Below are positions 26,305 to 35,462 of a stretch of DNA of 35,983 bases, one piece after another; position 1 is the stretch's first letter, and each line of letters opens with the position of its first letter. Position numbers and translations under genes: made by a program. Under the pieces are notes generated by a model. That model ran no database searches, was not told the DNA's origin, and worked only from the letters and a program-made list of their open reading frames with translations. This stretch comes from Ruminococcus sp. (lineage in GTDB: Bacteria > Bacillota > Clostridia > Oscillospirales > Ruminococcaceae). The stretch is from positions 1 through 35,983 of the forward strand of contig JAAVHJ010000067.1 of assembly GCA_014799805.1 (NCBI GenBank). Reading direction: 5' to 3'.

Positions 26305-27027
26305 TTATTTTTTTAGCCAAACAAGATATTCTATATTGCCAGAACCGCCTTGAATCGGCGATTGACAAGAATTTTTTATGATAAAGCCAGTTTGTTTTGC
26401 AAAATCTAAGATTTCTTGTAATACTTGTAATCTAATTTTTTCAGATTTCACAACGCCTTGTTTATTTAAAAATTTTTTCCCTGCTTCAAACTGTGGTTTT
26501 ACTAATGCAACGCAATTAGAATTATTTGCTAATAAATCATAAACAGACGGCAAAATATATTTCAAAGAAATAAAAGAAACATCAATGCTGCAAAATTCAG
26601 GTAATTCTAAAAAACTAGATTGCTTTAAATTTCTAATATCTGTATTTTCTAAACTAATTACTTTTAAATTATTTTTTAATTTTTCTGCCAACTGGTCATG
26701 TCCGACATCAATGGCATAAATTAATTTTGCATGATTTTGTAACATACAATCTGTAAAACCACCTGTAGAAGCTCCAATATCCATGCAGATTTTATTTTCT
26801 GGACTAATTGAAAATACTTGTAACGCATGTTCTAATTTTAAACCGCCTCTGCCGACAAATTTTAAATCTTCTAATATAATTTTATCTGTATTTTCTACTA
26901 AAACAGATGGCTTTGTACAAATTTCGCCGTTTAATAACACTTTGCCATTTTTTAATAATAATTTTGCACGGGAACGACTTTGGCAAAGTCCACGTTCCGC
27001 AAGTGCAATGTCAATTCTTACTGCCAT
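26305..27027 (-). CDS. tlyA: TlyA-family rRNA 2'-O-methyltransferase
   Basis: A 240-aa protein with an N-terminal S4 RNA-binding domain (residues about 1-60: RIDIALAERGLCQSRSRAKLLLKNG) and an FtsJ-like methyltransferase domain with the SAM loop CMDIGASTGGFTDCML at about 80-95 and later DVSFISLKYILP. Homologues methylate the 2'-O of ribosomal RNA cytidines; some act as haemolysin-like proteins, an older name for the family. The first 17 bases overlap the end of dxs, so the two are coupled. Confidence 0.94.
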   Translation of the reverse strand: MAVRIDIALAERGLCQSRSRAKLLLKNGKVLLNGEICTKPSVLVENTDKIILEDLKFVGRGGLKLEHALQVFSISPENKICMDIGASTGGFTDCMLQNHAKLIYAIDVGHDQLAEKLKNNLKVISLENTDIRNLKQSSFLELPEFCSIDVSFISLKYILPSVYDLLANNSNCVALVKPQFEAGKKFLNKQGVVKSEKIRLQVLQEILDFAKQTGFIIKNSCQSPIQGGSGNIEYLVWLKK

Positions 27028-28900
27028 AAGTGTAAATATATCTGCAAACAGCCTGTGCTGATAACTGTGATTTTTCTAATAAAGCCGAAACTGATGCATG
27101 TTTTAAAAAACTATCTGCGGAGATTCTGACATATTGTCCCTGAAAGCCATACTGTGCTAATAAAGACCCAAAAATAGTTGAAATTCCGCCATAGCCACTA
27201 CTTTCTTCAAAAAACATGACAGTTTTATAATTTAAAGCTTTTTCTATTAATTCCTCTTGTATCGGAAAAATTCTGGTTAATTTTAATATACTAGTTTTAT
27301 AACCACTTTTTTCACAAGTACAATGTGCATTCCAGACAGCCTGAAACACTCTGCCATAAGAAATTAATAATATACTTGCATCACATTTTGTAAAATAATA
27401 ATCTGTATTTATATTTTCTTTTGGAAAATTCATATTTGCATCATTGCCTTTGGGATAACGCACGGCTGTTAAGCCAGTATCTTTTTGAATTGCCCGTCTT
27501 AAGCAAAGCTTTAATTCTTCATAACATGCAGGCGAATAAATCACAGATTCTGGGATAGAAGTCAGCATTGGCACATCAAAAGTCCCCTGATGTGTTTCAC
27601 CATCTTCTCCAACAATTCCAGCACGGTCAATTGCTAATACAACATGTAATTTTCCAATTGCAACATCATGTAAAAGCTGGTCATAGGCTCTCTGCAAAAA
27701 CGTAGAATAAACAGCAAATACTGGTGTCATTCCAGCAGAAGCAAGTCCTGCTGAAAATGTCACAGCATGTTGTTCTGCGATTCCTACATCATAGAAACGT
27801 TCCGGAAATTTTTCCTGGAAATATTGCAGACCTGTTCCATAAGTCATTGCTGCTGTAATGGCACAAATTTTAGTATCCTGTTCTGCTAATGCTGTTAATT
27901 CTTTTCCAAATACATCAGAATAACAATCATTGCCTGAAACTTCAGGATTTCCTGTTATAATATCAAATTTAGACACACCATGAAACTGACTGGGATTTTG
28001 TTCTGCTGGCAAATAGCCCTTCCCTTTGACAGTTTTTACATGAATAAACACAGGTGCGTCATAACGCTTAGCCGTTTTAAAAACTTCTTCTAATTCCTGT
28101 AAATTATGCCCGTCAACTGGGCCTAAATACACAAATCCCAATTGTTCAAACATAGTCGCCTGTTGAAATATGACACGTTTAAAACTATCTTTTGTTTTTT
28201 TCAAAACTTTCACAGCTGGCATACCAATTTTAGCATTGCTTAATAAATTTTTTTCAAGTTGCTGTTTTTTCTGGACATATCTTTCACTCTCTCTGATAGA
28301 ACGCAAATAGCCCGAAACAGCACCTACATTTCCAGAAATAGACATGTTATTATCATTTAAAACAACGATTAAATTTTTTAATTTTTTCTTTCCGCCGTTA
28401 TTTAATCCCTCAAATGCCAGACCCCCTGTTAATGCACCATCACCAATGATAGCAATTACTTTATGATTATCACTTTGTAACCGCATTGCTTCTGCAATAC
28501 CACATGCAACAGAAATTGATGTGCTACTATGCCCACTAATAAAAACATCATGTTCTGATTCGTCTGGTTTCGGAAAACCTGAAATGCCGTTTTCTTTTCT
28601 AATAGTTTCAAACTTATCAGCACGCCCTGTTAAAATTTTATGCGTATAGCATTGATGCCCTACGTCCCAGATAATTTTATCTTTTGGTGACTCAAATATT
28701 CTATGCAAAGCCATTGTTAATTCTACTGTTCCCAAATTAGATGCCAAATGCCCACCGTTTTTAGAAATGACCCGAACCATGAAAGCCCGAATTTCTTTGG
28801 CAAGTTTTCGGCATTGATAAAAATTTAATTTTTTTAAATCCTGTGGGAGTGTTAGCTCACTAAGCTTATATTCTTTAGATTCTTGATTCATCATACTCAT
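27011..28900 (-). CDS. dxs: 1-deoxy-D-xylulose-5-phosphate synthase
   Basis: A 629-aa thiamine-diphosphate enzyme that opens the MEP isoprenoid pathway by joining pyruvate and glyceraldehyde 3-phosphate. GGHLASNLGTVELTMALH and IWDVGHQCYTHKILTGR are the N-terminal motifs, IGDGALTGGLAFEGLNN binds the cofactor, and DVGIAEQHAVTFSAGLA carries the catalytic Glu of the transketolase fold. The ATG at 28900 is preferred: GGAAGTGA lies eight bases before it, while the ATG at 28918 has no such site. It is next to ispA, as in many bacteria. Confidence 0.96.
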   Translation of the reverse strand: MSMMNQESKEYKLSELTLPQDLKKLNFYQCRKLAKEIRAFMVRVISKNGGHLASNLGTVELTMALHRIFESPKDKIIWDVGHQCYTHKILTGRADKFETIRKENGISGFPKPDESEHDVFISGHSSTSISVACGIAEAMRLQSDNHKVIAIIGDGALTGGLAFEGLNNGGKKKLKNLIVVLNDNNMSISGNVGAVSGYLRSIRESERYVQKKQQLEKNLLSNAKIGMPAVKVLKKTKDSFKRVIFQQATMFEQLGFVYLGPVDGHNLQELEEVFKTAKRYDAPVFIHVKTVKGKGYLPAEQNPSQFHGVSKFDIITGNPEVSGNDCYSDVFGKELTALAEQDTKICAITAAMTYGTGLQYFQEKFPERFYDVGIAEQHAVTFSAGLASAGMTPVFAVYSTFLQRAYDQLLHDVAIGKLHVVLAIDRAGIVGEDGETHQGTFDVPMLTSIPESVIYSPACYEELKLCLRRAIQKDTGLTAVRYPKGNDANMNFPKENINTDYYFTKCDASILLISYGRVFQAVWNAHCTCEKSGYKTSILKLTRIFPIQEELIEKALNYKTVMFFEESSGYGGISTIFGSLLAQYGFQGQYVRISADSFLKHASVSALLEKSQLSAQAVCRYIYTYGSKN

Positions 28901-28925
28901 AGTTTTATCACTTCCCATTATAAAT

Positions 28926-29363
28926 TTATTGCAAAGGCATAAATGCACCAATCATAATCCCCAATATTGCCCCACATACAACTTGTAATGGCGTATGCCC
29001 AAGCAATTCTTTAAATTGACTTTTTTTATCCGTCTGTTCATCTTGTGAAAATAATTTTGACATAATAGCATTTAATTGCTTTGCATGTTTTCCAGCTTCT
29101 AATCTGACATTTGCCGCATCATACATGACAATTGCCGAAACAACAAACATAATTGCAAAAGTAGACGAATTCCAACCGTCTAATCTTCCTGTTGAAATCA
29201 ATGACGCACATACCAAAGACGAATGCGAACTTGGCATACCACCTGAACCATATAATCTTTCTATATTAAATTTTGTATTTTGCACAAAAAATAAAATAAA
29301 CTTCAAAACTTGTGCTGCTGCCCATCCTAAAATACCTGCACACAAAATTGGATTATATATCAT
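28926..29363 (-). CDS. Divergent PAP2-family membrane protein (DUF212/YuiD-like)
   Basis: A 145-aa protein with about four hydrophobic segments. The motif RLYGSGGMPSSHSSLVCA at about residues 36-53 is the hallmark of the divergent PAP2 family (a phosphatase-like G-x-P-S-S-H), and LLGHTPLQVVCGAILGI holds the distal conserved H-T-P-x-Q-V. AGGAAGTGAG precedes the ATG. It sits between ispA and dxs, so a role in prenyl- or undecaprenyl-phosphate handling is plausible from context, but the activity of this family is not established. Confidence 0.9.
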   Translation of the reverse strand: MIYNPILCAGILGWAAAQVLKFILFFVQNTKFNIERLYGSGGMPSSHSSLVCASLISTGRLDGWNSSTFAIMFVVSAIVMYDAANVRLEAGKHAKQLNAIMSKLFSQDEQTDKKSQFKELLGHTPLQVVCGAILGIMIGAFMPLQ

Positions 29364-29382: not shown

Positions 29383-30291
29383 TTACTGCACACGCACTAA
29401 AAGCATATCAGTCAAAGCGTGTAAAAATTCAGTATTTTCAAAATTATCTAACACTTGATGTGCCATTTTTGTTAATGTTATGGCTTGCTTTCTAGCTTCT
29501 TCAATTCCCATAAGACTGACAAATGTTGTTTTATTTTTTTCTATATCACTGCCGACAGGCTTGCCAAGTTGTTCTGACGTACTTGTGACATCAAGAATAT
29601 CATCTATAATTTGAAATGCTAATCCAACATAACTGCCATACTGTCCAGCAGCTTGTATTTGTTCTTCTGTCGCATTACCACAAATACAACCCATTTGACA
29701 AGCCGCTTGCATTAAAGCACCTGTTTTTCCAAGACACATTACTTGCAGTTCTTCTAATTTTACTTGCTCCTGATTTTCAAACTGCATGTCCAGCATTTGA
29801 CCGCCAATCATGCCAGAAATACCCTCACATTCTGCAAGCGTTTTGATTAAATTAATTTTTTGTCCTGCATTTAAATTTTCTGATTTGGCAATTAATTCAA
29901 ATGGCAAACAAATTAAAGCATCTCCTGCTAAAATTGCAGTTGCTTCATCAAAAGCTTTATGACAAGACGGCTTGCCACGTCTGAAATCATCATTATCCAT
30001 AGCAGGCAAGTCATCAAAAACCAAGGACGAAGTATGCGTCATTTCCATTGCACAGGCAACAGTATCCGCAGAATATAAATTTCCACCACATGCTTGACAA
30101 AATGCATAAATTAACGCAGGTCTGATTCTTTTTCCGCCTGCTGTCAGAGAATATCGCATAGCATCAAATAAATTTTCAATCGGCATTCCTATTTTTTCCT
30201 GTATAGATTTTAATATATCATGCATATAATTTTCTACACGTTTTGCATATTCTGCTAATTGCTGATTGACTAAATTATTATTATCATTCAT
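29383..30291 (-). CDS. ispA: Polyprenyl (farnesyl) diphosphate synthase IspA
   Basis: A 302-aa all-alpha prenyltransferase that condenses IPP with allylic diphosphates, mostly to C15. The first Asp-rich motif is DDLPAMD at residues 93-99, the second DDILD at 230-234, and GGKRIRPAL at 52-60 binds the diphosphate. The two-residue insertion in the first motif (DDxxxxD) is typical of bacterial FPP synthases. The ATG overlaps the end of xseA by four bases (ATGA). In related operons xseB stands at this junction; it is missing here. Confidence 0.95.
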   Translation of the reverse strand: MNDNNNLVNQQLAEYAKRVENYMHDILKSIQEKIGMPIENLFDAMRYSLTAGGKRIRPALIYAFCQACGGNLYSADTVACAMEMTHTSSLVFDDLPAMDNDDFRRGKPSCHKAFDEATAILAGDALICLPFELIAKSENLNAGQKINLIKTLAECEGISGMIGGQMLDMQFENQEQVKLEELQVMCLGKTGALMQAACQMGCICGNATEEQIQAAGQYGSYVGLAFQIIDDILDVTSTSEQLGKPVGSDIEKNKTTFVSLMGIEEARKQAITLTKMAHQVLDNFENTEFLHALTDMLLVRVQ

Positions 30292-31208
30292 AAATTATCT
30301 TCCTCACTTTCTACTTTAACCCTAATACAACCATCAGTCAGGCAAATTTTTAAAATATCTCCTGTTTTTACCTGATTTACAGAGATAAGCCCTTTATTAT
30401 CAGACAATAAAATTTCAGGATATTTTTTTTGCGTTGCAAGTTCTGCACCTACGGAGGGCGTAGATGCCCGCAAATCTGCAACAAAATCTGTTAATGTCAT
30501 ATCTGTTTCATGCCCAATGGCTGAAATCACAGGCGTTTGGCAACAAGAAACAGCTCTTACAATTTTTTCTGAATTAAAAATAGCTAAATCTTCTGCACTT
30601 CCGCCACCTCTGCCAAGAATCAGCACATCACAGCCTTGTGTATCTGCAATTTTGAGTGCTTGACAAATTTCAGATTCTGCTTGTTTTCCTTGCATTTTTG
30701 CGGGAAATACTATAATTTCTGCTAACGGACAACGTCTTTCTAAAATTTTTAGCATGTCCTGCAAAACTGCTCCTGTTGAAGAAGTAATTAAGCCTATTTT
30801 ATCAGGATTTTCTGGAATCTGTTTTTTCGCAGACTGGTCAAATATACCCTCTGCATGCAAGATTTTTTTTGTTTTTTCTAATCCTCTTTGCACAGTTCCT
30901 AAGCCTTGTAATAGCATATCTGTCACATGCAATTGAAATATGCCATTGACTGGATAAATATCAGCACTAGCCGAAGCGATAACTTGCAAGCCATTTTCTG
31001 GCTGAAAACGAAGATTTTCTGCCAAATGCCGAAACATCACAGCTTTTACAGAACTTTCTTCATCACGCAACGAAAAATACAAATGCCCTGTATCTTGTAT
31101 TTTTAAATTTGCGATTTCGCCCTCTATTAAAAGCAATTGCAAATCAGGATATTTTCGGATAAAATGCATTGCTTTTTGATTTAATTCAGAAACTGTCAGA
31201 ATTGCCAT
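30288..31208 (-). CDS. xseA: Exonuclease VII large subunit, short form lacking the coiled coil
   Basis: A 306-aa protein; the family usually has 400-450. The OB-fold domain (about 1-100) starts LTVSELNQKAM and contains LLIEGEIANLKIQDTGHLYFSLRD. The catalytic core follows: GLITSSTGAVLQDML (139-153), LILGRGGGSAEDLAIFN (196-212), ISAIGHETDMTLTDFVADLRASTPS (cited at 228-252). Immediately after GAELA (255-259), where a coiled coil of about 130 residues normally follows, the sequence passes to the C-terminal element ISVNQVKTGDILKICLTDG (275-293). No stop or frameshift is involved. The ATG at 31208 fits the family start; longer frames run into the neighbour. xseB is not in the operon. Confidence 0.92.
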   Translation of the reverse strand: MAILTVSELNQKAMHFIRKYPDLQLLLIEGEIANLKIQDTGHLYFSLRDEESSVKAVMFRHLAENLRFQPENGLQVIASASADIYPVNGIFQLHVTDMLLQGLGTVQRGLEKTKKILHAEGIFDQSAKKQIPENPDKIGLITSSTGAVLQDMLKILERRCPLAEIIVFPAKMQGKQAESEICQALKIADTQGCDVLILGRGGGSAEDLAIFNSEKIVRAVSCCQTPVISAIGHETDMTLTDFVADLRASTPSVGAELATQKKYPEILLSDNKGLISVNQVKTGDILKICLTDGCIRVKVESEEDNL

Positions 31209-32142
31209 GATAAATACTAGCATAAACAGCCGTGCCGACTGCATTATCACAGGAAAATGCAGGTTCTGCAAAGGCTGTTTCTGTTTTGGAATAAAAATAT
31301 TCTGAAATTTGCTTCTGAATATATTGATTCGACATGACACCACCGACATATAATACAGGCAAATTTTGTTCTTGTAGTAATATTAAACTTGTCATTTTTT
31401 TTAAAATTTCAGAAATCGCAGTCAAACAAAACATGGCAATATCACGGGCTGGCATATTATCTTGATATAATTTAGCACACTGGTTTTCTAAGCCAGACAT
31501 ACAACAAGAAAGACCTTTCATCACAGGCTGGTATTTAAATTTTGCTTTGCTTTGCATAGCAAGCTGTTCTAAGTCTTTTCCACAGGGGAAATGTAAGCCT
31601 AACATAATGCCCACTCTGTCAATTAATTGCCCTGCTTTCAAATCCAGTGAAGATGAAATTGTTTTTACATGCAAGATATTTTTATTATCTGGTTCACACA
31701 AAACACAATCTGTTGTACCACCACTTACATGAAATGCGAAAAATTTCTGATTTCGCCATGCAAGTTTTTTTGCTGAATATAAACCTGCTAAAATATGCCC
31801 TACCTGATGATTTGTTTCATACACAGGAATATTTAACACATGCCCTAATATCTTTGCAGTATGTTCACCGCAAAGAAAACAGGGCATATAAGATTTTTCC
31901 ATATTTCTTGGACGAACAGAAACACCAATGCCTGAAATTTTTTTCTCAGAAATATTTAATTTTTCCAGAACTTCAGGCAATTGCATGACATGATGAAATA
32001 CAGCATCACTCTGTCTTAAACCTTTTTGTCCTGATTTTACAGGCAATAATTTTTTGGCTTGTAATATTTTTTTCTGGCTGGTATCATAAATAGCTGCCGA
32101 AGTTGTATAATTACTGGTATCTAAGCCAAGATATAATGCCAT
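31186..32142 (-). CDS. TsaD/Kae1-like ASKHA protein (M22 peptidase family paralogue)
   Basis: A 318-aa protein of the TsaD/Kae1 fold. It starts LYLGLDTSNYTTSAAIYD, carries the HxxxH metal site as H112-Q-V-G-H116, the phosphate loop FHVSGGTTDCVL (about 137-148), LPVLYVGGVMSNQYI and a late SCDNAVGTAVYASI, where TsaD has a TDNA motif. It is divergent from TsaD (the tRNA t6A enzyme), and a separate tsaD is expected elsewhere. Similar paralogues occur beside nusB/xseA in Oscillospiraceae; function unknown. The ATG at 32142 overlaps nusB by 32 bases, and its end overlaps xseA by 23 bases. Confidence 0.85.
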   Translation of the reverse strand: MALYLGLDTSNYTTSAAIYDTSQKKILQAKKLLPVKSGQKGLRQSDAVFHHVMQLPEVLEKLNISEKKISGIGVSVRPRNMEKSYMPCFLCGEHTAKILGHVLNIPVYETNHQVGHILAGLYSAKKLAWRNQKFFAFHVSGGTTDCVLCEPDNKNILHVKTISSSLDLKAGQLIDRVGIMLGLHFPCGKDLEQLAMQSKAKFKYQPVMKGLSCCMSGLENQCAKLYQDNMPARDIAMFCLTAISEILKKMTSLILLQEQNLPVLYVGGVMSNQYIQKQISEYFYSKTETAFAEPAFSCDNAVGTAVYASIYHGNSDSF

Positions 32143-32500
32143 TAATAAAAGCTGTATCTTCTGCACTTGCATATAATTCTGATAATCTGACAGCTTCACT
32201 CACGACAACATTCATAGGCGTTTCAGAACAGTATTTTAATTCATAAATTGCCATGCGTAATAAAATTAAATTTACTCTTGCAATGCGATTTAATGCACGT
32301 TTCGGACTATAAACAGCAATAATTTCATCTAAATTTTCTGTTTCTGCAATAATATGCTTTACAAGTTCTTCTACTTGTGAATTGATTTCAATTTCACCGA
32401 TTTCATTTGCAATTGCAAATAATTCTTCCAGTGTATCATTTCTAAAAGACGCTTCAAATAAAATTAAAAACGCATTTTCCCTGCACTGTTGTTTTTTCAT
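32111..32500 (-). CDS. nusB: Transcription antitermination factor NusB
   Basis: A 129-aa all-helical protein that, with NusE (S10), binds boxA RNA in antitermination of rRNA operons. RENAFLILFEASF at residues 7-19 is the N-terminal RNA-binding helix; RIARVNLILLRMAIYELKY and TPMNVVVSEAVRLSELYA with FINGIISWL are the conserved C-terminal motifs. The ATG overlaps the preceding Asp23 gene by four bases. Confidence 0.95.
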   Translation of the reverse strand: MKKQQCRENAFLILFEASFRNDTLEELFAIANEIGEIEINSQVEELVKHIIAETENLDEIIAVYSPKRALNRIARVNLILLRMAIYELKYCSETPMNVVVSEAVRLSELYASAEDTAFINGIISWLRYQ

Positions 32501-32811
32501 AAAACCTCCTGTGCGATACCGCTAATTTCTACATTGACATGAACAGTTGTTACACCTGTCATATCCTGAATGCTTTGTTTTACAGTCTGTTGTACACGTT
32601 CAGCAACTGTTGCAGCACGGCTGTCATTCTTGACAAGAATTTTTACTTCCACAGCAATTGCACCACCAAGATTCATAATACCAACTTTTGTATCAGGCAC
32701 AAGCCCTGCCACACCTGCAATATCTTTTACAGACAATGCTGCAACCTGACGAAGTACTTCATCTGAAATCTGAATTGTTCGTTCAGATTTTTTAATCTGA
32801 TCCATACTCAT
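32497..32811 (-). CDS. Asp23/Gls24-family (YqhY-like) protein
   Basis: A 104-aa Asp23/Gls24 protein. QISDEVLRQVAALSVKDIAGVAGL near the start and VHVNVEISGIA at the end are typical. In Bacillus the equivalent YqhY stands between the acetyl-CoA carboxylase genes and nusB and affects lipid synthesis; here accB and accC are absent between it and spoIIIAH. It is first in its operon, behind a clear promoter and an AAAGGAAG ribosome site. Confidence 0.92.
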   Translation of the reverse strand: MSMDQIKKSERTIQISDEVLRQVAALSVKDIAGVAGLVPDTKVGIMNLGGAIAVEVKILVKNDSRAATVAERVQQTVKQSIQDMTGVTTVHVNVEISGIAQEVL

Positions 32812-32892: not shown

Positions 32893-33468
32893 TTATTTTA
32901 CTTCAAAAATCCTGATATTTTCAGCAGGGATAGAAACTTCTTCGAGAATCGCAGATTTAATTAATGCCGCACCAGATGCATCAAGTCCGTCAGTACGCAC
33001 AACAACTTTTGCTGTATCAGCATCAAGATATACAACACAATCTGAAAAACCTTGTGATTTAATAAGCGATTCAATTGTTCCTTCATGTTCAATCATGCTT
33101 GCTACTTCAGCAGCATCTAATGCAACACTAACGGCTTCATCATCTGTAATATCACCACCGCCCATAATCATTTGCAAAGTTTGTACAGCTTCATCACGAT
33201 TTGTTGTTTTCTCAAGTCTTGCCTTAGCAAAATAATCTGCTGATGCGTCTGGTTCTGCTTCAGCATTTACAAATTCCGTGTCACCGTAATGCGGAATTGT
33301 AATATTATCTTCCTGTGTTTGTTCAATTTCTGTTATGGGTGTTGTCTGAACAGTCTGCAAATCGGTTTTTGTATAGGCATAATTAATATATACCGCCGTT
33401 GCAAGCAACACTGTCAATCCTGATAAAACTAATTGCTTTTTTCCAATAATGAAAGATGGTTTTGGCAT
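32893..33468 (-). CDS. spoIIIAH: Stage III sporulation protein AH
   Basis: A 191-aa mother-cell membrane protein. One helix at about residues 12-30 anchors it; a low-complexity acidic linker (about 35-85) is followed by a YscJ/FliF-like domain (about 90-191: RDEAVQTLQMIMGG, EVASMIEHEGTIESLI and AKVVVRTDGLDASGAALIKSA). In Bacillus it binds forespore SpoIIQ across the intermembrane space, forming the feeding channel and the engulfment ratchet. It starts two bases after spoIIIAG ends. Confidence 0.95.
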   Translation of the reverse strand: MPKPSFIIGKKQLVLSGLTVLLATAVYINYAYTKTDLQTVQTTPITEIEQTQEDNITIPHYGDTEFVNAEAEPDASADYFAKARLEKTTNRDEAVQTLQMIMGGGDITDDEAVSVALDAAEVASMIEHEGTIESLIKSQGFSDCVVYLDADTAKVVVRTDGLDASGAALIKSAILEEVSIPAENIRIFEVK

Positions 33469-33470
33469 AA

Positions 33471-33989
33471 TTATGACTCCTTTCGTATTGCGGTTTGCTC
33501 AAGCTGTGTGACATAAATCTGTGCCGTACGTAAGCCACATGCAACAGAAACTGCCTGATAAACAGTTTCCTGCACAGTGCTTTTTCCTCCGCCCTCACAT
33601 GCGACAACAACGCCTGTAATTTCTGGGTGTGATACAGATTCTACCAATGCTTCTTTTTGAGAACCGCCTACCGTCACATAACGGCTGTCAGCTTCTTGTG
33701 CATAGTGATACGCTTCGCTTCCCTGAATTGTCACTAATACTTCTACTTTTCCAACACCTGTGATATTCCCAAGCATTTCTGCAAGCTGTTCCTGCAATTG
33801 CAAACGATAAGCTTCTTGTGAAATTTCTGCATGTTCAGATTCTTGTGTTTCTGGTTGCTCTTGTGAAGATTCAAAACAAGAAGATAATAAAATACATAAT
33901 ATGCCAAGAATGCCTACAATTACTAAAATATGCACCAGAATATCTTTTTTAAAATTTTCTTTATATTTATTCCAGAACTTCCGTAACAT
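33471..33989 (-). CDS. spoIIIAG: Stage III sporulation protein AG
   Basis: A 172-aa membrane protein of the SpoIIIA channel. A helix at about residues 18-40 (ILVHILVIVGILGILCILLSS) is followed by a Glu/Gln-rich stretch and then a ring-building domain with GNITGVGKVEVLVTIQGSEAY and ITGVVVACEGGG, the SpoIIIAG hallmarks. In Bacillus it forms a large ring in the outer forespore membrane. Its first 23 bases overlap spoIIIAF. Confidence 0.94.
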   Translation of the reverse strand: MLRKFWNKYKENFKKDILVHILVIVGILGILCILLSSCFESSQEQPETQESEHAEISQEAYRLQLQEQLAEMLGNITGVGKVEVLVTIQGSEAYHYAQEADSRYVTVGGSQKEALVESVSHPEITGVVVACEGGGKSTVQETVYQAVSVACGLRTAQIYVTQLEQTAIRKES

Positions 33990-34407
33990 GAATTTCTACC
34001 TCCTCTCCTAGTGCCTGTTCCAGCACACGGCAAGCTTTTTGAAAATCATCGCATACTGCGTTGACATCACTAATAGATATGCTTTGATTTTCATCAATAT
34101 GCACAGTGACCTGTAATTCAGAACAGGAAATCTGTTCTTGTGCCAGTAATAAATATAAAGCTTCTTCGACATATTTCTGTGTCACAGCCTTTGCACTTTC
34201 CTGTGAACGTTCCTGTTGTATTTCCATCATAGAAACGGGAAATTCTAAATTTGTCAACGGTATAGCAAGACTAATAATAAATAATAATGCAATTAAAAAA
34301 CGTACTTGTTTTGCAAGTGCTGCATTTGGGCATACTAACGTACAGACAGCAATTGCTATGCTTAACATACAGACAGAAATCACAGATATTTTTAAATTTT
34401 CTAGCAT
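33967..34407 (-). CDS. spoIIIAF: Stage III sporulation protein AF
   Basis: A 146-aa protein with two membrane helices in the first 52 residues (ISVICMLSIAIAVCTLVCP-like and VRFLIALLFIISLAIPL) and a soluble domain (about 55-146) with VHIDENQSISISDVNAV, matching SpoIIIAF topology. It belongs to the mother-cell SpoIIIA complex. It lies eight bases after spoIIIAE and overlaps spoIIIAG. The assignment rests partly on position because the family is weakly conserved. Confidence 0.88.
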   Translation of the reverse strand: MLENLKISVISVCMLSIAIAVCTLVCPNAALAKQVRFLIALLFIISLAIPLTNLEFPVSMMEIQQERSQESAKAVTQKYVEEALYLLLAQEQISCSELQVTVHIDENQSISISDVNAVCDDFQKACRVLEQALGEEVEIHVTEVLE

Positions 34408-34415
34408 GTTTTAAA

Positions 34416-35462
34416 TTATCCTCCACTCCCCAATGTTAGCATAATGCCTGTACTGACAATAAACATCACAGAAAAGCTCACAGCAACGGAAAATCCAACA
34501 GATAATACAGATTCTAAATTTTTAAATAATCTTGCAAGTCCAGAAACAGAAAATAATTCTGCTATCGTTGATGCAATTGCTGTAATAGCTTTATATAAAA
34601 ATAATTCCGTCAAAACAGGTAATAATAATGCAATAATTGCCAAAATTCCAATCATACCTGTAGCAGATTTTAATACATTCATACTGCCTAATACAGCCGA
34701 ATATGCATCAGAAACAGCTCCCCCAACAAATGGAATAAATCCAGAAATAGCATATTTAATTGCTTTTGTGCCAAGCTTGTCCGTCGCATTAGAAACAATG
34801 CTTTGTACAGATAAAAATCCTAAAAACAAAGACATTAAAAAGCCTAATATCCAAATCGTAATTTTTTGTACAAGCTTAATCATTCCAGACAATGAAATTT
34901 CAGGATTTACAGCATCAACAAGACCCATTGCAAGACACATTGTTAAAAACGGAAATAATAATTTCACTGCAATTTCTAATGCAATATTACATAAAATTAT
35001 CATAGCACTTTGATAACCAGCTGAAGCTGTTAAATTACCATTCACAGCTAAAATACCGCCAAAAATTGCCGAAAAAGCAAGCATAAAATCTGCTGTTTTT
35101 TCTAATATCTGTGTGGCATGCCGAAATATTTCCGTAAATGGTGTAATCATTGCCCCTGTCGCACATAATACAGCTACTGTATCACAAATTTTTGCAATTG
35201 CATTTTTCTGATTTTTTAAACTGCTTGCCAATGCAGATAATAATATCACACCAATTAATAAGCCTAATATCTGTAATGGAATATGTATTTGATTTTTTAT
35301 ATTATCTAAAATATGACTCATAAAATCAGAAAATTGCAGTTCTGTCAAACTTGATATATCTTGTTCTAATCCAATATTTTCTAATAATTCTCCTGTTCCA
35401 CTTGCATTTAATAATTCTGAAAGTGTTTCATCATAATAATACTGAATTTCTTCTGTACTCAT
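34416..35462 (-). CDS. spoIIIAE: Stage III sporulation protein AE
   Basis: A 348-aa polytopic membrane protein. After an amphipathic N-terminal part (about 1-55) it has some seven to eight hydrophobic segments, with LGFLSVQSIVSNATDKLGTKAIKY and FIPFVGGAVSDAYSAVLGSMNVLKSATG (cited as the conserved SpoIIIAE core) in the second half. It is the largest membrane component of the SpoIIIA transport complex and resembles a transporter. The ATG overlaps spoIIIAD by four bases. Confidence 0.95.
   Translation of the reverse strand: MSTEEIQYYYDETLSELLNASGTGELLENIGLEQDISSLTELQFSDFMSHILDNIKNQIHIPLQILGLLIGVILLSALASSLKNQKNAIAKICDTVAVLCATGAMITPFTEIFRHATQILEKTADFMLAFSAIFGGILAVNGNLTASAGYQSAMIILCNIALEIAVKLLFPFLTMCLAMGLVDAVNPEISLSGMIKLVQKITIWILGFLMSLFLGFLSVQSIVSNATDKLGTKAIKYAISGFIPFVGGAVSDAYSAVLGSMNVLKSATGMIGILAIIALLLPVLTELFLYKAITAIASTIAELFSVSGLARLFKNLESVLSVGFSVAVSFSVMFIVSTGIMLTLGSGG

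Follow-up and report, generated by a model that had tools for sequence, protein, structure and literature searches.

The question raised by this locus is whether XseA, the large subunit of exonuclease VII (ExoVII), can be maintained as a nuclease once both its long coiled coil and the small subunit XseB are gone. The xseA gene under study lies on a 35,983-nucleotide stretch of DNA (hereafter the window; contig JAAVHJ010000067.1 of Ruminococcus sp. assembly GCA_014799805.1), and an earlier note made from the sequence alone had proposed that it encodes a reduced, XseB-free nuclease and is not a damaged gene. To our knowledge, there is no settled explanation of why ExoVII requires numerous XseB subunits along an extended coil. 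A 2024 cryo-electron microscopy paper on the Escherichia coli enzyme reportedly describes a large cage in which the coil keeps the active sites enclosed, with a C-terminal barrel formed by domain swapping. The joint absence of coil and xseB in related genomes, the restriction of this state to a single clade and the purifying selection acting on the coil-less genes support the proposal. Sequence comparison hence suggests that the window gene probably represents a maintained, compact, XseB-independent ExoVII-type nuclease, carried by a single clade within a genus labelled Ruminococcus.

The window protein is encoded by an uninterrupted reading frame and has the N-terminus MAILTV. Alignments with relatives begin at the ATG at 31208, which was therefore taken as its start; a longer mechanical frame begins at 31349, within the upstream gene. 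The protein exceeds the cut-offs of the NCBIfam XseA family and of both Pfam domains (Table 1), and PF02601 and PF13742 were both matched in the 12 members of an alignment of coil-less XseA proteins (alignment A1). Residues G232, H233, E234, D236, D241, A244, D245, R247, A248, T250, P251, A255 and E256 are invariant in all 12 rows of this alignment, as are D151 and R200. We take D151, R200, H233 and D236 to be the counterparts of the E. coli XseA catalytic residues D155, R205, H238 and D241. The title of the E. coli XseA structure in PDB entry 8txr names the mutation H238A.

Alignment with 8txr pairs residues 2-262 of the window protein with residues 8-267 of the chain, and residues 262-300 with residues 405-443, this second stretch being weak (4.4 bits). 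Both proteins present the OB fold, the catalytic core with its motif residues and the C-terminal element, at 42-43% identity; they differ in that the window protein skips about 137 E. coli residues, has no long coiled coil between residues 262 and 263, and has no XseB that could be found. Coordinates, Pfam matches and this alignment thus agree with the description given in the earlier note of a 306-residue frame that keeps all three elements with no frameshift. The gap of about 130 residues that it reported fits the E. coli protein but not most congeners, in which the coil measures 93 residues. The window protein is short of 93 residues with respect to the congeneric genomes G021 and G001, and of 115-137 residues with respect to G022, G007 and G011, the longest coil being that of G011 (137 residues). 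The spacing between the AAE and RGY motifs is exactly 97 residues in 11 of the 15 coiled congeners and 141 in one, the pattern failing in three. Likewise, the break had been placed at residue 260, and the alignment locates the deletion at about residues 258-263.

In the window genome, which is 88% complete and assembled in 76 contigs, neither an xseB gene (PF02609) nor a second XseA above the PF02601 cut-off was found, in line with the XseB-free gene proposed initially. An additional PF02601 match (19.6 bits, model positions 99-197) fell below the cut-off and was not counted as XseA; this sub-threshold match recurs across many relatives, frequently in a frame of about 370 residues. We surveyed 38 congeneric genomes (G000 to G036 and G430) and identified coil-less XseA in 12 of them (G000, G003, G008, G014, G018, G025, G027, G029, G031, G034, G035 and G430). 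These genomes contain 13 loci, two of them in G025, and encode 12 distinct proteins, the G430 XseA being identical to that of one G025 locus. No PF02609 match was obtained in any of the 12 genomes, the window genome included (assemblies 72-96% complete). Coiled XseA was found in 15 genomes, and in each of them xseB (52-66 bits) separates xseA from ispA on a single contig. Coil and xseB are therefore jointly absent in 12 of 12 genomes and jointly present in 15 of 15, and the xseA-xseB-ispA arrangement that had been presumed usual, with ispA now lying where xseB would be, is the one observed in every coiled congener. An xseB gene hidden elsewhere in the genome was considered and rejected, given that PF02609 was silent in all coil-less and positive in all coiled genomes.

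XseA is absent from the remaining 11 genomes. Three of these (G012, G016 and G032; loci L099, L100 and L098) represent clean losses, in which both xseA and xseB have been deleted. The distance between the matches to the upstream TsaD-like gene and to ispA is 1351-1616 bp in the 15 coiled loci, 890-927 bp in 12 coil-less loci and 40-73 bp in the three with the deletion. No distance could be computed for G008, in which no match for the TsaD-like gene was detected between nusB and xseA (locus L045). The other eight genomes (G006, G017, G019, G020, G023, G026, G030 and G036) present neither XseA nor xseB and yield no ispA match (E <= 1e-30). The dxs match is also missing in seven of them, and G019 is 91% complete. 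These eight genomes probably reflect a gap at this locus in the assemblies, the alternative being loss of the locus, and they were excluded from the comparison of coil and xseB.

A phylogeny of NusB, IspA, DUF212 and Dxs from 31 loci, in which rows G015, G025b and G035 fill less than half of the columns, separated all the reduced loci from the others by a branch with 100/100 support. In this tree, the three genomes lacking xseA group together as the sister clade of G000, G031 and G003. A tree of XseA rooted on five XseA proteins from other families also recovered the coil-less clade with 100/100 support; the rows flagged as long in this tree, G011 and G022, are both coiled. The loss of coil and xseB hence constitutes one evolutionary event or series of events, and not many. 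Coil-bearing relatives, which the earlier note had named as a possible refutation pointing to a local deletion or an assembly error, do exist, but they lie across a single fully supported split, and the coil-less architecture is therefore an old lineage trait. The incompleteness and fragmentation of the window genome would fit an error confined to one metagenome-derived assembly, but the recurrence of the architecture, together with the absence of xseB, at 13 loci from 12 genomes of one clade, with identities to the window protein down to 55%, leaves such an artefact with a virtually negligible probability, and we reject it.

Purifying selection on coil-less xseA was evident from the ratio of nonsynonymous to synonymous substitution rates (dN/dS), which was estimated by segment in four coil-less and four coiled pairs. 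The catalytic segment (residues 120-258) yielded 0.117 in coil-less and 0.111 in coiled pairs. Whole-gene values for coil-less xseA were 0.144 (G000-G031), 0.167 (G000-G003), 0.179 (G031-G003), 0.121 (G018-G027), 0.123 (G025a-G025b) and 0.233 (G034-G029), with IspA values for the same pairs of 0.175, 0.170, 0.163, 0.098, 0.462 (from a cut gene of 102 residues) and 0.153, respectively. The near-identical pair G025a-G430 and the repeat G430-G025b were run and are uninformative. The core of coiled XseA ranged from 0.071 to 0.133 in the six pairs run with a synonymous rate below 2.5. Coil-less XseA is thus somewhat less constrained overall than coiled XseA, with a nuclease core under the same constraint as in full ExoVII and a looser periphery. 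Since loss of the coil has left the constraint on the catalytic core unchanged, the gene is maintained and cannot be regarded as damaged. Conservation was also compared between the 12 coil-less proteins and 33 coiled ones (15 from congeners and 18 from other families). The coiled set has 84 non-gap columns with a conservation of at least 85%. Of these, 60 reach the same threshold in the coil-less set, the four catalytic positions among them, 19 are partly kept and five (33, 48, 91, 100 and 239) are replaced. No stop was found inside the XseA match at any of the 13 coil-less loci.

According to an excerpt of a published study (PMC5684230), the OB fold of XseA binds DNA, the middle domain cuts it and the coil binds XseB. 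In the scenario that we favor, one ancestral event or series of events would have removed the 93-residue coil of xseA along with the neighboring xseB. What is left comprises the whole catalytic domain and the C-terminal element, preceded by an OB fold for single-stranded DNA. Lacking the coil, the C-terminal element would reach only its own subunit or the immediate neighbor, and from this short reach we infer that the protein works as a monomer or small oligomer, closed in form but with its active site open. Such a protein would bind DNA without XseB, its self-sufficiency having probably been gained by closure of the C-terminal element within one subunit. The length of the linker and the root-mean-square deviation of the 8txr alignment (77.7 Å) are consistent with this putative shift from a swapped to a closed arrangement. 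A natural lineage devoid of coil and XseB, with selection on the core unchanged, makes the role of XseB directly testable within one genus, and the sister lineage without xseA provides a third state for comparison.

Several observations weigh against a functional XseB-independent nuclease. Excerpts of previous work report that E. coli XseA needs XseB for DNA binding (PMC11077951) and that mutants impaired in the XseA-XseB interaction are hypersensitive to ciprofloxacin, like other loss-of-function mutants (PMC5684230). The excerpt of the latter study also assigns three alpha-helices to the C-terminal domain, at odds with the strands predicted here at residues 265-267, 285-290 and 293-298, in a model whose predicted template modelling score is 0.55 and whose domain placement is not reliable. 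The OB fold (residues 1-99) is slightly looser in coil-less than in coiled pairs (dN/dS of 0.134 vs 0.078), and residues 100-119 (0.377 vs 0.133) and the C-terminal element (0.379 vs 0.236) are less constrained; the coil itself yields 0.244 in coiled pairs. A long stem (0.75 in the XseA tree) leads to the coil-less clade, and its length is compatible with a period of relaxed selection. Furthermore, the co-loss being one phylogenetic event, the 12 coil-less and 15 coiled genomes are not 27 independent observations, the relatives G031, G003 and G029 are metagenome assemblies, and xseA has proven dispensable in the three sister genomes that lost it entirely.

The complete deletions, the looser C-terminal and 100-119 segments and the long stem branch are also what speaks for slow decay, the main rival explanation, by which coil and xseB would have been lost first, ExoVII function would have decayed and the gene would now be drifting to full deletion. 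We deem this course of events unlikely, because a decaying gene would not keep the catalytic constraint of its coiled relatives through a divergence down to 55% identity; the lack of stops and the invariance of the catalytic residues in all 12 proteins also argue against it. The maintained, compact nuclease consequently remains our preferred reading.

A further feature of the coil-less loci is their coupling to ispA, which encodes farnesyl diphosphate synthase. In the window, the ispA start and the xseA stop share the 4-bp sequence ATGA (30288-30291), as the earlier note had reported. The other unfused loci, four of the 13 in total, show overlaps of 4 or 8 bp, and in the remaining nine (L046, L047, L048, L049, L050, L051, L052, L053 and L139) the open frame runs in frame from XseA through the ispA start. 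Complete XseA-IspA frames span about 620-640 residues, two of the nine (G025 C84 and G035 C136) ending at contig ends inside ispA, and the two fused frames that were scanned (L052 and L051) contain PF02601, PF13742 and PF00348. On the tree of NusB, IspA, DUF212 and Dxs, the fused state must have changed three times or more, and the closest relatives G000, G031 and G003 each have a junction of their own (a 4-bp overlap, an 8-bp overlap and a fusion). The ispA ATG and a preceding purine-rich stretch persist in the eight fused junctions that were printed, and free IspA may therefore still be made. Judging from the reading frames, the XseA-IspA fusion appears to be frequent but not obligatory.

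The in-frame fusions and the short overlaps at the other loci could point to the recruitment of XseA as a covalent or co-translated partner that positions or regulates farnesyl diphosphate synthase, its nuclease activity being secondary. This seems improbable to us: the variable junction among the closest relatives indicates that covalent linkage is not strictly conserved, the eight printed fusions retain the ispA ATG and its purine-rich stretch, the conserved residues are those of a nuclease, and the tight coupling may only reflect a compact operon. A more elaborate version of the XseB-independent nuclease, which we put forward tentatively, is an active ExoVII without a cage, that is, a closed, XseB-free nuclease that in most cases would form one polypeptide with farnesyl diphosphate synthase. 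If so, a multi-subunit assembly built by domain swapping would have become, with the loss of the coil, a self-sufficient nuclease, and in most members of the clade a bifunctional nuclease-isoprenoid enzyme. Fusions of this kind, with two unrelated enzymes in one frame, could also mislead annotation pipelines. For the window itself, we considered whether a programmed frameshift might connect xseA with ispA and set this aside, as no classical slippery run was seen by eye and an overlap-coupled restart is simpler.

Beyond the genus, an order-level sample of 394 genomes, compared by hand, contained 360 genomes with both genes, five with XseA only (G000, G110, G238, G277 and G297) and three with xseB only (G216, G236 and G380). 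Among the matches listed, out of 365 XseA matches in all, G000 was the only coil-less case. G110 has no PF02601 match and the G238 match holds a stop, and both were discarded; G277 and G297, as well as G446 and G783 from a phylum-level sample, were taken as cut genes, their frames stopping 4-29 bases from a contig end. The phylum-level sample (398 genomes, 278 matched at E <= 1e-75) revealed no other intact coil-less gene among the matches listed. For the remaining matches, absence was deduced from their ranking and, in the order-level sample, from the presence of xseB. In a set of 14 control genomes, PF02601 was matched in 12 and PF02609 in 10, some matches falling below the cut-offs. Thermus composti, Haloferax volcanii and Methanosarcina acetivorans yielded only an XseA match, and Sulfolobus acidocaldarius only an xseB match. 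Given these three control genomes, XseA without a detected xseB is not unique to this genus, and coil-bearing XseA lacking XseB, or short variants of another kind, may occur far from it. The titles and abstract openings surveyed in the literature contained nothing on coil-less or XseB-free ExoVII, nor on an XseA-IspA fusion.

XseA matches were also obtained in 197 plasmid and 61 phage records. The seven records that were opened all encode longer genes (350-430 residues), six of them with an adjoining small-subunit gene. The haloarchaeal plasmid proteins of Halorubrum (L163) and Halobacterium (L164) (1447-2499, 350 residues) resemble the window protein in being naturally short, and a Pfam search run on L163 identified the OB fold and the catalytic core. 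Their truncation is the reverse of that in the window protein, since, by eye, they keep a short segment after the core and a hydrophobic, membrane-helix-like tail replaces the C-terminal element. In Halorubrum, xseB adjoins xseA; the Halobacterium stretch has no xseB listed, and beyond its xseA lies a transposase. The proteins of Gordonia phages OneUp, Yvonnetastic and Engineer and of Spiroplasma citri and Acinetobacter plasmids are likewise found outside the usual chromosomal setting, but have 388-430 residues and a small-subunit gene alongside. The small-subunit gene of OneUp is annotated just as "exonuclease" and was identified by PF02609. The plasmid of S. citri, a plant- and insect-associated mollicute, presents the order xseA - xseB - hypothetical - dxs (L160), with neighbors that resemble those of the window chromosome.

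The coordinates of xseA, its domains and its neighbors are given in Table 1. The 15 coiled congeners share the locus nusB - TsaD-like - xseA ... ispA - DUF212 - dxs with the window, at a core identity of 44-53%, and differ from it in the presence of the coil and xseB.

Table 1. Features of the xseA locus in the window
Feature	Position	Strand	Evidence
dxs, 1-deoxy-D-xylulose-5-phosphate synthase	27011..28951	-	PF13292, E 3.6e-115; frame as listed, start provisional
Divergent PAP2 family (DUF212) gene, downstream of ispA	28926..29363	-	PF02681
ispA, farnesyl diphosphate synthase	29383..30291	-	start overlaps xseA stop
xseA, coil-less ExoVII large subunit, 306 residues	30288..31208	-	TIGR00237, 344.9 bits (cut-off 180); PF02601, 214.3 bits (curated cut-off 35.9)
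Retained C-terminal element, residues 263-300	30309..30422	-	collinear alignment with 15 congeners
Deletion point, residues 262/263	30422..30423	-	93 coil residues sit here in congeners G021 and G001
Catalytic domain, residues 122-262	30423..30845	-	PF02601, model positions 1-142 of 315 only
Conserved motif region GHETD...D...AD.RA.TPS..AE, residues 232-256	30441..30515	-	alignment A1
N-terminal OB fold, residues 4-98	30915..31199	-	PF13742, E 6.6e-23, 81.2 bits (curated cut-off 27)
TsaD/Kae1-like gene, upstream, overlaps xseA start	31186..32142	-	PF00814, E 1.2e-19; start at 32142 chosen by us
nusB	32111..32500	-	TIGR01951, 92.2 bits (cut-off 88.35)
Asp23-family gene	32497..32811	-	PF03780

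A consensus promoter scan yielded at most 1.7 standard deviations over shuffled sequences, terminators scored no better than shuffles, and we give no weight to either result. Directly upstream of the asp23-nusB-xseA-ispA-dxs run, the window contains sporulation genes matching the Pfam families of SpoIIIAH and SpoIIIAE (32893-35462).
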